From contig JAFWZW010000019.1 of the NCBI GenBank assembly GCA_017517325.1, forward strand, positions 1 through 36,972: a DNA stretch of 36,972 nt. The letters run 5' to 3'. A program made the translations under genes and the position numbers. Positions 24 to 36,972 of the stretch are shown here, in pieces (position 1 is the first letter of the stretch; each line of letters begins with the position of its first letter). The notes beneath the pieces are model-generated. The model was not told the DNA's origin. It ran no database searches and saw only the letters and a list, made by a program, of their open reading frames with translations. Source of the stretch: Clostridia bacterium (GTDB lineage: Bacteria > Bacillota > Clostridia > Oscillospirales > SIG627).

Positions 24-214
24 CCAAGCCGCAGCCTTGGCATATTATCACGCAGTATGCGTGTATATCATCGCCGCAAGCGCATATCATCAGCCAAAGG
101 CTGTATTTCTGCGGCCTAATGAAATACAACACTTCGTGTTGATAATATGCAATTCCTTCAGAATTGATGATATACAAAGCTTCGCCTTGGTTTTATTTCA
201 CATTGCGCAGCAAT
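24..214. repeat. Hairpin array A with orientation-switching linkers
   Basis: A run of short inverted repeats fills the first 214 bases. Hairpins read from the sequence are 24-40, 50-62 (ACGCA/TGCGT), 72-82 (weak, 3 bp), 91-103 (CAGCC/GGCTG), 128-140 (AACAC/GTGTT), 151-165 (AATTC/GAATT), 175-189 (one mismatch) and 202-214 (ATTGC/GCAAT). They are joined by linkers GCATATTATC (40-49), GTATATCATC (63-72), GCATATCATC (82-91) and GTATTTC (103-109). After the centre the linkers appear as reverse complements: GAAATAC (121-127), GATAATATGC (141-150) and GATGATATAC (166-175). The halves can pair in nested order around 110-120. Read on the minus strand the array ends in a CCAA..TTGG hairpin followed by ATAAAAA, the same ending as the array at 36609-36777. 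The function is unknown. The structure is seen directly; homology to the other arrays is inferred. Confidence 0.8.
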
Positions 215-35210: not shown

Positions 35211-35238
35211 ATTATAGCATACAGTTGCACGAAGTCAA
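35211..35238 (-). promoter_or_regulatory. HAD operon promoter with -35 inside hairpin array B
   Basis: On the minus strand TTGACT (35233-35238), 16-bp spacer, TATAAT (35211-35216) preceded by TGC. The -35 hexamer is one arm of the hairpin 35224-35239. Confidence 0.72.
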
Positions 35239-35373
35239 CATCGTTGGGCGTCAGTCCACACCGTTTGTGCGAAGCACAACACTGTTTGCCGAAGGCAACC
35301 TCGTTTTGTGTCCGCTAAAGCGGAATGATGTTGACCTAAAGGTCAAATGATGTTGTATCCTTACGGACACAAA
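35224..35373. repeat. Hairpin array B with orientation-switching linkers
   Basis: Seven small hairpins: 35224-35239 (GTTG/CAAC), 35246-35257 (GGGC/GTCC), 35265-35279 (TTGTGC/GCACAA), 35286-35298 (TTGCC/GGCAA), 35311-35324 (TCCGC/GCGGA), 35331-35346 (TTGACC/GGTCAA) and 35353-35372 (TTGT..CC/GG..ACAA). Left-half linkers read CAACATCGTT, CACACCGTTT, CAACACTGTTT and CAACCTCGTTT; right-half linkers read AATGATGTTG and AAATGATGTTG, the reverse complement of the left consensus. The organisation equals that of 24-214 and 36609-36777 with different linker sequence. The right end runs into an A-rich stretch and a terminator. Confidence 0.8.
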
Positions 35374-35376
35374 CAC

Positions 35377-35414
35377 AAAAAATAAAGCACTTCTTGCGAA
35401 GTGCTTTATTTTTT
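35377..35414. terminator. Bidirectional terminator beside array B
   Basis: AAAAAATAAAGCACTTC (35377-35393) pairs perfectly with GAAGTGCTTTATTTTTT (35398-35414) around a four-base loop. On the minus strand it serves the HTH regulator gene ending at 35476; on the plus strand it would end a transcript of array B. Confidence 0.9.
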
Positions 35415-35475
35415 GGGACCGACACTCAAAATGGAACCGGTATAATAACTTGATTTTCTATCAAATTGTAGTTTT

Positions 35476-36114
35476 TTAATTAATTCTTTGCAAGGAAACA
35501 CATTCCTTTGGCTCAAAAACCTTAAAAGCTGCTTCAGTCATCACAAAAATTTGATGTTTGTCCCGCAATTTTCCGTTTTTAGCAGATCCCCAAATTCCTT
35601 CGTCAAGTCCTGTAATGGTACCGGGCTTGCCTTTGATAATAACAATGGTAATGGTATCCGCCACTAAAAGCGGTTTCACAAGAGGCGCTTTTACAACACT
35701 TGGACGGCTATGCCCTCCGGCTATGTAAAATTGGGTCCAATAGACAGTGTTATCCTCGCCGCAATCAATTCTCGTAGACTTAGTGGCTTTTTTCTTTGTT
35801 ACATACAAAACGAATTTCTGCCCGTTCCACACAAAACTACTTTTTTGCACACTATCCGTTTCCTCAACAGTTTTCCCAAAAGCACGACTGTAATGATAGA
35901 GAGACAGTTCACTCTCCAAAGAGCACTCCATCATATCCCCTACATCACATCTCAGGGAAGTACAAATTTTGGCAATAGTATCTGTTGTTACGGTTTCATT
36001 CTTTGCAAGTTTTGCAATAACACGAGAACTGAGACCTGTCAAATCAATCAAATCCGATTTTGAAAGCCCCTTTTCGGCTAATAATTTCCAGAGCTTAGAA
36101 TAGTTGATATACAC
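35476..36114 (-). CDS. HTH (Cro/CI-type) regulator with unrecognised C-terminal domain
   Basis: A 212-residue protein. Residues about 6-62 are a Cro/CI-like helix-turn-helix: LWKLLAEKGLSKSDLIDLTG, LSSRVIAKLAKNETVTTDTI and ICTSLRCDVGDMME follow the usual helix order. The remaining 145 residues are a beta-rich domain I do not recognise, with WTQFYIAGGHSRPS near 125, VADTITIVIIKGKPGTITG and GIWGSAKNGKLRDKHQIFVM. It has no obvious catalytic signature and could be a ligand sensor or nuclease-like partner domain. The start is GTG with GGAGG seven bases upstream, behind a consensus -35 promoter. A perfect inverted repeat with 10-base arms at 36168-36191, just upstream of the promoter, is a natural autoregulatory site. 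AT-rich like its neighbours. Confidence 0.78.
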   Translation of the reverse strand: MYINYSKLWKLLAEKGLSKSDLIDLTGLSSRVIAKLAKNETVTTDTIAKICTSLRCDVGDMMECSLESELSLYHYSRAFGKTVEETDSVQKSSFVWNGQKFVLYVTKKKATKSTRIDCGEDNTVYWTQFYIAGGHSRPSVVKAPLVKPLLVADTITIVIIKGKPGTITGLDEGIWGSAKNGKLRDKHQIFVMTEAAFKVFEPKECVSLQRIN

Positions 36115-36137: not shown

Positions 36138-36166
36138 ATTTTATCCGAAATCGCACTAAATGTCAA
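36138..36166 (-). promoter_or_regulatory. Promoter of the HTH regulator gene
   Basis: On the minus strand TTGACA (36161-36166), 17-bp spacer, TAAAAT (36138-36143). Confidence 0.85.
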
Positions 36167-36167
36167 G

Positions 36168-36191
36168 AATTATTTACTTTGGTAAATAATT
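36168..36191. promoter_or_regulatory. Perfect inverted repeat upstream of the HTH promoter
   Basis: AATTATTTAC (36168-36177) and GTAAATAATT (36182-36191) are perfect reverse complements separated by four bases. The repeat ends one base upstream of the -35 box and is a likely binding site, most simply for the HTH protein itself. Confidence 0.75.
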
Positions 36192-36197
36192 AGTTTC

Positions 36198-36231
36198 AAA
36201 AATAAGCCGTGAAAATTCACGGCTTATTTTT
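36198..36231. terminator. Terminator overlapping the four-helix-bundle gene end
   Basis: AAAAATAAGCCGTGAA (36198-36213) pairs perfectly with TTCACGGCTTATTTTT (36216-36231). The gene's stop codon at 36217-36219 lies in the right arm, so termination starts within the coding end. Confidence 0.9.
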
Positions 36232-36585
36232 ATTGATCTTGTTTTCGATTGTTATGCAAGAGGACGTGAGCATTCTGCGGATTCTACCGCAGAGGTTGCG
36301 GTATTTCTTGAATACTATATCATCAATATCAGAAGAGGAAAGAAGGAGTTTTAACCAAGATTCCGTTTCCATGCATTCCTTACGTGCAATCTCAAATTTT
36401 GACAGCATATCCGGAAGGCTTTGAGGGTATTGTGCTTCGGAAATGTTTGCAAAAACACTGGAAGAAGATTTCTTCAACTGAAAAAGCGTATTGGAATTCC
36501 CTCTTCTACCATTGAGGGACTTACACAATTCCTCAATGCCCGTTGCAAGTTCTTCTGAATACTTCAAAAGATAATTTGTACTCAT
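36217..36585 (-). CDS. Four-helix-bundle protein (23S rRNA intervening-sequence protein/bAvd-like)
   Basis: A 122-residue, almost all-helical protein matching the four-helix-bundle family first found in 23S rRNA intervening sequences and related to bAvd of diversity-generating retroelements. Landmarks are the LKKSSSSVFANISEAQ stretch (about 38-53; in the family usually Q.R.AA.SI..NI.EG), the FEIARKECMETESWLKLL helix and a final helix with basic residues. Family members form pentamers that bind nucleic acid in bAvd. The ATG at 36585 has AGGA at a spacing of seven; the preceding GTG is less likely. No 23S rRNA or reverse transcriptase is nearby. Instead the gene directly follows hairpin array C, and no standard promoter is seen between the tRNA terminator and its start. 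An RNA- or DNA-hairpin-related role is inference. Confidence 0.85.
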   Translation of the reverse strand: MSTNYLLKYSEELATGIEELCKSLNGRRGNSNTLFQLKKSSSSVFANISEAQYPQSLPDMLSKFEIARKECMETESWLKLLLSSSDIDDIVFKKYRNLCGRIRRMLTSSCITIENKINKNKP

Positions 36586-36608
36586 CACTCGATCCTTTCG
36601 TTCCTAAT

Positions 36609-36777
36609 CACGGCAAAGCCGTGCATGGAATCAACACGAAGTGTTGGATGGAATCCGCTGTAGGCGGCATGGAATCAATCCGAAGGAAATACACGCTAAC
36701 GCGTGATACCATACAGTCGCAAAGCGACTGATTCCATACACCCTTGCGGGTGATGCCATGCCAATCCTTCGGATTGG
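36609..36777. repeat. Hairpin array C with orientation-switching linkers
   Basis: Hairpins: 36609-36623 (CACGGC/GCCGTG), 36632-36646 (CAACAC/GTGTTG), 36655-36667 (CCGC/GCGG), 36679-36687 (weak central, TCC/GGA), 36692-36705 (CACGC/GCGTG), 36714-36730 (CAGTCGC/GCGACTG), 36739-36752 (CACCC/GGGTG) and 36761-36777 (CCAATCC/GGATTGG). Linkers before the centre are CATGGAATC, GATGGAATC and CATGGAATC; after it they are GATACCAT, GATTCCAT and GATGCCATG, which are reverse complements with at most one change, in nested order. The array is the 5' neighbour of the four-helix-bundle gene and ends with ATAAAAA next to the tRNA terminator. Confidence 0.85.
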
Positions 36778-36780
36778 ATA

Positions 36781-36813
36781 AAAATAAGACAGTCGATTGA
36801 CTGTCTTATTTTT

Positions 36814-36814
<1 letters not shown>
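36781..36814. terminator. Terminator of the tRNA-Asp/tRNA-Thr transcript
   Basis: AAAATAAGACAGTC (36781-36794) pairs with GACTGTCTTATTTT around GATT. It starts right at the CCA end of tRNA-Thr on the minus strand. On the plus strand it would also end a transcript of array C. Confidence 0.9.
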
Positions 36815-36889
<75 letters not shown>

Positions 36890-36895
36890 ATATTG

Positions 36896-36972
36896 TGGCG
36901 ACCTGAAGGGGGCTCGAACCCCTGACCTCTAGCGTGACAGGCTAGCGTTCTAACCAACTGAACTACCAGGCC
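36896..36972 (-). tRNA. tRNA-Asp (anticodon GUC), CCA encoded
   Basis: The minus strand gives acceptor GGCCTGG with TCAGGTC (G-U pairs included), anticodon stem CTAGC/GCTAG with loop CTGTCAC (anticodon GTC), T-arm GGGGTTCGAGCCCC and encoded CCA at 36896-36898. The 5' end is the last base of the window, so its promoter and any further upstream tRNAs are outside. Confidence 0.96.

Follow-up and report, generated by a model that had tools for sequence, protein, structure and literature searches.

Arrays of mini-hairpins preceding genes for four-helix-bundle IVP proteins: a seemingly undescribed family of small, probably mobile elements, mostly behind tRNA genes in gut bacteria

Introduction

The closest described relatives of the locus reported here are the intervening sequences (IVS) of 23S rRNA. 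In the portions of PMC4990558 on which we draw, these are sporadically distributed, have complementary ends and have long been suspected of mobility, and both this mobility and the function of the IVP/S23 protein are called unclear; the same portions describe Xcc0516, a four-helix bundle, as a pentamer. IVP is mentioned in CPR rRNA insertions in an excerpt of PMC11270868, and Avd of the DGR systems is given as a homologue of IVP in an excerpt of PMC10053308.

Several other systems have features in common with the locus. REPIN/RAYT are short, palindromic, non-autonomous elements dispersed between genes, group IIC introns insert beside intrinsic terminators, and the tandem heptamers of cyanobacterial STRR are reportedly present in RNase P RNA genes (Vioque 1997).

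Here we analyse the window, i.e. the whole 36,972-nucleotide stretch of DNA from a Clostridia bacterium, in which a first-pass annotation had proposed a two-part element made up of a hairpin array (array C) and the four-helix-bundle protein encoded next to it. Like the 23S rRNA IVS, as far as the portions cited describe them, it is small and sporadic, has complementary ends and belongs with the same protein family. Unlike them, arrays are found outside rRNA, behind tRNA or protein genes, with many gene-less copies, and both inverted halves lie upstream of the gene, with hairpins interleaved with linkers. Because Rfam finds no rRNA match in the window, where the unit instead adjoins tRNA-Thr, array C and its IVP gene are not classed as an IVS, a class that requires location in an rRNA gene and excision by RNase III without ligation, the protein being optional. 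As in cyanobacterial STRR, tandem heptamer-like repeats lie beside an IVP gene, there on plasmids; however, STRR have no hairpins between the repeats and their link to IVP consists of a few plasmid loci. Arrays resemble REPIN/RAYT in being short, palindromic, non-autonomous and dispersed between genes, but the partner here is a four-helix-bundle protein, PF01797 was not found in several IVP-rich genomes, and the pairing order is that of a pseudoknot. Insertion beside intrinsic terminators recalls group IIC introns, yet there is neither an RT at the array C locus nor an Rfam intron match, and although Avd is homologous to IVP according to the excerpt mentioned above, there is no RT nearby, the sole RT match in the window's genome (G000) being on another contig, C8. 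For the array itself, Rfam gave no believable RNA at gathering or permissive thresholds (best match 19 bits, gathering 142). No description of IVP with hairpin arrays, or of a link between STRR and IVP, was recognised in literature searches of open-access PMC papers. Hairpin arrays with IVP at the side of tRNA genes therefore look like an undescribed family of small mobile elements; the protein family and the rRNA IVS are already known, and the hairpin-array form is best read as a variation on IVS-type mobile elements.

Results

Layout of array C and its IVP gene

On the gene strand, the order is tRNA-Asp, tRNA-Thr (ending in CCA), a terminator palindrome (hp0), array C, the IVP gene and another such palindrome, and the left edge of the unit lies immediately after the CCA of tRNA-Thr (Table 1). 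Array C (36609-36777) consists of hp1 (CCAATCC-GAA-GGATTGG), three linker-plus-hairpin units, a centre, and three inverted linkers each with a hairpin after it. It has seven mini-hairpins; the eight originally counted are reached only when the hp0 palindrome is included. The reversal of linker type at the centre was described correctly, from YATGGMAT-type before it to ATTCCATR after it. Also in agreement with the first reading, no sigma-70-like promoter was found in 36150-36972 and PF00078 (RT) has no match on the window's contig, C19. A TATAAT-like box is seen by eye between array and IVP gene in many relatives.

The window contains two further arrays, A and B, neither of which is followed by an IVP gene. 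Array B is preceded by CCGGTTCCATTTTGAGTGTCGGTCC (window 35414-35440), which by eye also precedes an array+IVP element (L103) in G004:C15, and an HTH_26 gene at 35476-36114 has a homologue, again by eye, adjoining that same G004:C15 element.

Table 1. Positions of the features of the array C unit and of the other arrays in the window
Feature	Position	Strand	Remark
Complete putative mobile unit, with hairpin array and IVP gene between two terminator palindromes	36197..36813	-	558/618 identity to G000:C12, homology stops at both palindromes; equal limits in four G004 copies
Host gene tRNA-Thr (GGT), directly upstream of unit	36814..36889	-	ARAGORN, Rfam
hp0, terminator palindrome with 15 perfectly matched bp, bounding unit on left	36780..36813	-	
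hp1 CCAATCCGAAGGATTGG	36761..36777	-	5' arm and loop additionally match centre
Left linker 1 CATGGCAT	36753..36760	-	
Hairpin B	36739..36752	-	
Left linker 2 TATGGAAT	36731..36738	-	
Hairpin C	36714..36730	-	
Left linker 3 TATGGTAT	36706..36713	-	
Hairpin D	36692..36705	-	
Centre TCCTTCGGATTG	36676..36687	-	12-nt complement to 5' arm and loop of hp1
Right linker 1 ATTCCATG	36668..36675	-	
Hairpin E	36655..36667	-	one non-pairing position in window copy
Right linker 2 ATTCCATC	36647..36654	-	
Hairpin F	36632..36646	-	
Right linker 3 ATTCCATG	36624..36631	-	
Hairpin G	36609..36623	-	
IVP gene (23S_rRNA_IVP / four helix bundle protein)	36217..36588	-	123 aa from GTG or 122 from ATG
Right terminator palindrome, right edge of unit	36198..36231	-	overlaps end of IVP gene
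Array A, solo, linker YATATCAT, without IVP gene	24..189	+	126.5 bits with model R1
Array B, solo, other linker type (AACATCAT / ACGATG), own terminator palindrome	35225..35415 (approximate limits)	-	

The IVP protein and candidate partner enzymes

The minus-strand gene encodes a member of the four-helix-bundle IVP family, as had been recognised from its translation, scoring 59.9 bits with PF05635 and 64.9 bits with TIGR02436, for which the cut-offs are 33.8 and 24, respectively. The protein has a computed pI of 9.1, and its relatives of solved structure are 2rld (E 1.2e-38) and 2gsc (E 4e-4), with five chains each; by sequence relationship, it is expected to form a pentameric ring. Pfam and NCBIfam give only the IVP family for this protein, with no ToxN-like nuclease, and the unit encodes no transposase, recombinase or RT. 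The only RT match in G000 (assembly 81% complete) is at G000:C8:19939-20394, within a 571-aa frame, and the Y1 transposase (PF01797) was not found in this assembly. Across the 39 genomes, PF00078 RT is present in seven and Y1 transposase in 16, and neither was found in IVP-rich G013, G025 and G037, a distribution that weighs against a retro or HUH route. RT was not found in G013, G018, G037 and G025 (8, 6, 7 and 4 IVP matches, respectively), which are 90-98% complete, so that an RT could have been overlooked. As partners acting in trans, RT and Y1 transposase were rejected as agreeing poorly with the genomes in which they were found.

Array and IVP gene recur as one unit

Array C and the IVP gene form one recurring unit. 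G000 has two IVP genes, the second of which, on C12, is likewise preceded by this array at an equivalent position, and the two units are alike only as far as the two palindromes (Table 1). Two related copies are found in the congener G006, where they lie behind tRNA-Cys and tRNA-Thr; one of them has another hp0 and a disrupted IVP gene, and the right ends of both are unlike those in G000. In another congener, G004, four copies of linker type ATGAAGC are present at four sites, with homology extending from palindrome to palindrome. Their IVP gene is intact only in the tRNA-Thr copy; one copy has an internal stop and two have a common loss of the N-terminal part. hp0 moves along with some copies and not with others, and no target-site duplication was seen by eye at the element ends. 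Three loci (L023, L025 and L011) have, as seen by eye, a further copy of the left array half downstream of the IVP gene, and half-arrays without the rest of the element are found in L264 and L268.

Arrays accompany IVP genes in related genomes

Searching 39 relatives with PF05635 gave 85 matches in 26 of them, of which 84 were placed, one at a contig edge being left out; the genomes examined are largely MAGs. Among the 77 IVP genes with at least 400 bp of upstream sequence, 43 have at least five perfect mini-hairpins in the 230 bp upstream, compared with 10 of 305 control windows, and inverted exact linkers are present in 51/77 vs 22/305. The association that the first-pass annotation proposed to test is also apparent in a second set, the best 80 of at least 551 relatives, mostly rumen and hindgut Clostridia MAGs, where 59 of 71 IVP genes, vs 10 of 196 controls, have at least five mini-hairpins upstream. 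Two loci that duplicate first-set loci (L160 and L195) are excluded from the second-set, tRNA-neighbour and linker counts. Elements usually start with a special hairpin, which is followed by about three units of linker plus hairpin and by a centre that can pair with the arm of this first hairpin; about three inverted units then lead to the gene. Linkers (GTGAAG, GTGATAT, GTGATG, TGAAAT, AGCTAAA, GCGATAT, ATATCAT, ATGGAAT, TGTAATC and others) are uniform inside one array and different between elements.

Most listed arrays stand alone

The covariance model R1 has matches in 20 of the 39 genomes. Counted at 72 bits or more and on one strand per array, the matches listed comprise at least 86 arrays in at least 17 genomes. 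Within 500 bp, the distance named in the first-pass annotation, an IVP gene is present for 13 of these 86 listed arrays, 12 of them in the standard geometry, and for none of the other 73. Arrays are present in all nine genomes with the window's IVP type, as assigned by eye, vs 11 of 30 without it (p = 0.001). Two solo arrays at different sites in G004 are identical at 180/180 positions, their homology running from the terminator T-run to 26 bp beyond the array, and three other solo arrays have hp0 and hp1 in common behind three different tRNA-3'-end-like sequences, with the left edge, by eye, directly after CCA. We take array-only copies to be non-autonomous relatives of the complete element. 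Six solo arrays in G004 and G005 (L308, L311, L312, L316, L317 and L319) have a similar tail after the array, about GTAAGAGTTCGAATTCATACGC, which in several copies continues to AAATATCTTTTTTGTAGCCCATAGAC, sometimes with another array next.

Most elements lie at the 3' ends of tRNA and other genes

Insertion sites were counted in 117 non-duplicate loci with a strong linker pattern, 109 of which have 430 bp upstream. A tRNA ends within 400 bp upstream in 60 of these 109 array+IVP loci, representing 13 isotypes, and all 60 elements are co-directional with the tRNA; no tRNA lies within 400 bp downstream in any of the 109. In a count made before duplicate removal, the 43 other loci with enough sequence comprise 29 behind a co-directional ORF, five divergent and nine neither.

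Occupancy of a given site varies between relatives. The tRNA-Asp/Thr site was surveyed in 13 of 14 full-length loci including the window (L121 and shorter matches were left out, and about 125 nt of L110 were used); it is filled in three (G000, G004 and G021, with three linker types) and without array in ten. At a tRNA-Gln site, G022 and G008 are identical at 430/464 positions of the upstream and 137/140 of the downstream flank, and the interior of about 600 bases, which comprises hp0, the array and the greater part of the IVP gene, matches at 386 of 531 aligned positions. A 461-bp difference next to this site was considered as an empty site and rejected, as the change lies in the flank and not in the element. 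Twelve genomes were compared at the 3' end of one protein gene: G020 and G013 have the full element there, G021 and G016 have a left half-array, and nothing array-like is present in G018, G012, G017, G010, G011, G009, G019 and G007. The view that hp0 is built on the host stop codon is only moderately supported (6/27 vs 11/250 control ORF ends). L014 also includes, outside the element and at about 100-176, a ~77-bp repeat for which genome G008 has some 25-30 matches.

The structure of the array is under selection

Stable folding of 36600-36780, for which comparison with shuffled sequence had been suggested, is found on both strands as RNA (z = -6.2 for the plus and -4.8 for the minus strand) and for the gene-sense strand as ssDNA (z = -7.2), with 0/200 shuffles as stable in each case. 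The left and right linkers are inverted relative to each other, but the lowest-energy RNA folds do not pair all of them in the nested order envisaged in the first-pass annotation. The arm of hp1 additionally matches the centre, which gives the array the order a-L-a'-L', as in an H-type pseudoknot. When the array is folded as ssDNA, this arm is paired with the centre and the hairpins each form singly.

In 17 arrays of the window's subfamily, the hairpins covary across homologues. Two-sided change affects 22 of 41 hairpin pairs (slid controls, 7-12 pairs), with 87 two-sided cells vs a shuffled mean of 30.9 (0/500); hairpin E aligns poorly, with 56.7% paired. For the helix between hp1 and the centre, there are 15 two-sided cells vs 5.7 in shuffles (0/500) and the covariation score is 0.251 vs 0.116 (0/500), one column in the hp1 loop included, whereas two of the five measures are weak, namely pairs with two-sided change (4/12, 25/500) and pair types (207/500). 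Complementarity between arm and centre has a mean of 10.3 nt vs 4.9 when permuted (maximum 7.1 of 1000) among 29 distinct arrays, 28 of which were scored; one, L173, has no arm-centre match. The orthologous elements of G020 and G013 have equal linkers, and their hairpin arms are changed on both sides. The array structure is therefore under selection. In one-mismatch stems on the gene-sense strand with tRNAs masked, G.U outnumbers A.C (57 vs 31, p = 0.007), as it does in longer stems (40 vs 20 and 24 vs 11); in an unmasked, array-only count the excess falls to 24 vs 14. The bias hints at an RNA form without proving it.

Linker type and IVP type vary together

Among 103 IVPs, the proportion of pairs with near-identical linkers rises from 2% where identity of the IVP N-half is below 0.3 to 61% where it is at least 0.8, and from 5% to 55% at C-half identity of at least 0.8, the C-half being nearly as good a predictor. 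The rank correlation with linkers is 0.33 for the N-half, compared with 0.27 for the C-half. Of 300 permutations, none reached the observed value for the N-half, either alone or given the C-half, and two reached it for the C-half given the N-half. One chimeric IVP (L090, G008:C100), with an N-half of NYLL type and a C-half of GTGAAG type, has NYLL-type linkers. Because the N-half adjoins the array, this coupling is compatible with recognition without proving it, physical linkage predicting the same. The recurring unit and the covarying structure largely bear out the two-part element first suggested, and structure beyond that of shuffled sequence, covariation and association with IVP genes, the lack of any of which would have spoken against it, are all observed. 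We think it somewhat probable that IVP recognises the array.

Discussion

A probable mobile element and rival readings

Our preferred reading is that array C and its IVP gene are probably one copy of a mobile element of ~0.6 kb, with a cis-acting folded nucleic acid and one IVP protein, that settles at the 3' ends of transcription units. The family is very probably mobile. Such an element, in which hairpins spaced by one repeated linker are combined with a second half of inverted linkers and with the pseudoknot order a-L-a'-L', would settle chiefly directly behind tRNA genes, and there always in tRNA direction; since it has an intrinsic terminator at its left edge, the upstream gene should remain terminated. 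The strand that folds may be RNA, from read-through or as a trailer, or else the same strand as single-stranded DNA; the IVP ring may recognise the linker type, and the complex of folded strand and IVP may be copied into new 3' ends by host enzymes. Because its ends after the tRNA CCA and at the terminator T-run resemble transcript ends, an RNA form is suggested, and passage through an RNA or single-strand intermediate is a tentative proposal. The complete element could be autonomous. Against the mobile reading as a whole count the 73 of 86 listed arrays with no IVP nearby, the arrays in 11 of the 30 genomes that do not have the window's IVP type, the lack of an encoded transposase, recombinase or RT, the target-site duplications looked for by eye and not seen, the irregular presence of hp0 and the single intact IVP gene among the four G004 copies.

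The uniform orientation behind tRNAs, the terminator palindrome at the left edge and the conserved architecture would also suit a host module, in which a domesticated 3' structure protects or terminates tRNA transcripts, IVP is a regulator, and movement is homologous conversion between tRNA terminators. We consider this unlikely, given that occupancy is sporadic between relatives, different elements are found at one site, identical arrays lie at different sites, some sites are not tRNAs and IVP copies in G004 are decayed. The positions of the two edges, directly after CCA and at the T-run, could equally be those of a retroelement satellite, made when tRNA-trailer RNA is copied by an RT in trans with IVP as an Avd-like partner, an idea to which the kinship of IVP and Avd (in the excerpt of PMC10053308) and the G.U bias on the sense strand lend weight; it has a low probability in our estimation, with RT in so few genomes and none found in the four IVP-rich ones, 90-98% complete, listed above. 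Finally, repeat RNA directly upstream of a single small protein gene, with linker and IVP types that vary together, is what an RNA-protein self-recognition module would look like, for example a defence pair or one akin to type III toxin-antitoxin systems, with selection driving its spread. This is very improbable, as domain searches give the IVP family only, most listed arrays have no IVP nearby, and the presence of IVP genes within 23S rRNA and RNase P RNA is more in keeping with a mobile element. For the mobile element that we prefer, the scarcity of RT (7/39) and the lack of both RT and Y1 matches in G013, G025 and G037 favour, as the proposed route, IVP acting on a folded strand together with host copying enzymes.

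The arrays are multi-copy examples of IVP outside rRNA, with defined ends, preferred sites, defective and gene-less derivatives, and matched linker and IVP types, so that laboratory strains could be used to test both mobility and recognition. The arrays may also connect structured RNA, the 3' ends of tRNAs and heptamer repeats with a single protein family, and they bear on an old puzzle, the role of the IVP family inside ribosomal RNA genes.

IVP genes beyond the hairpin arrays

PF05635 is present in 35 of 199 Bacillota genomes. The 28 Bacillota IVP loci examined have 0-3 hairpins each and no hairpin arrays, but inverted tandem 7-mers on both sides score at least 7 in 19 of 28 vs 6 of 111 controls; at a threshold of 5, the contrast is weak (27/28 vs 38/111). 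Of five loci compared with Rfam, four lie inside 23S rRNA and one inside RNase P RNA. Given these insertions, the heptamer flanks and the hairpin arrays, we infer an apparent continuum that takes in IVS, IVP genes with heptamer flanks, and hairpin arrays. The IVP-bearing elements might even all belong to one mobile superfamily, made up of the IVS of 23S rRNA, the insertions in RNase P RNA, the heptamer-flanked genes of cyanobacteria and Bacillota, and the tRNA-side arrays; we give this conjecture slightly less than an even chance. Having no transposase or RT of its own, it would move by an undescribed copying route, via the IVP ring and self-complementary repeats that are regenerated as a set (linkers changing together, arms rewritten on both sides).

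The RNase P case is L253 (1229-2003), in which the IVP gene lies within the RNase P RNA gene and is flanked by inverted 7-mers. A tblastn search of plasmids with another IVP gave 25 records, mostly cyanobacterial, and in six cyanobacterial plasmid loci inspected by eye, inverted tandem heptamer-like repeats are clear in four, direct in L327 and weak in L331. Four of the six (L326, L328, L330 and L331) are simply IVP genes by heptamer-like repeats, weak in the last, and a possible source of STRR. In the other two, L327 (Pseudanabaena galeata) and L329 (Anabaena sp. 90), the IVP gene lies between cas6 and cas4 of CRISPR loci, of type I-D at least for L329, and the tandem heptamers of L329 are inverted.
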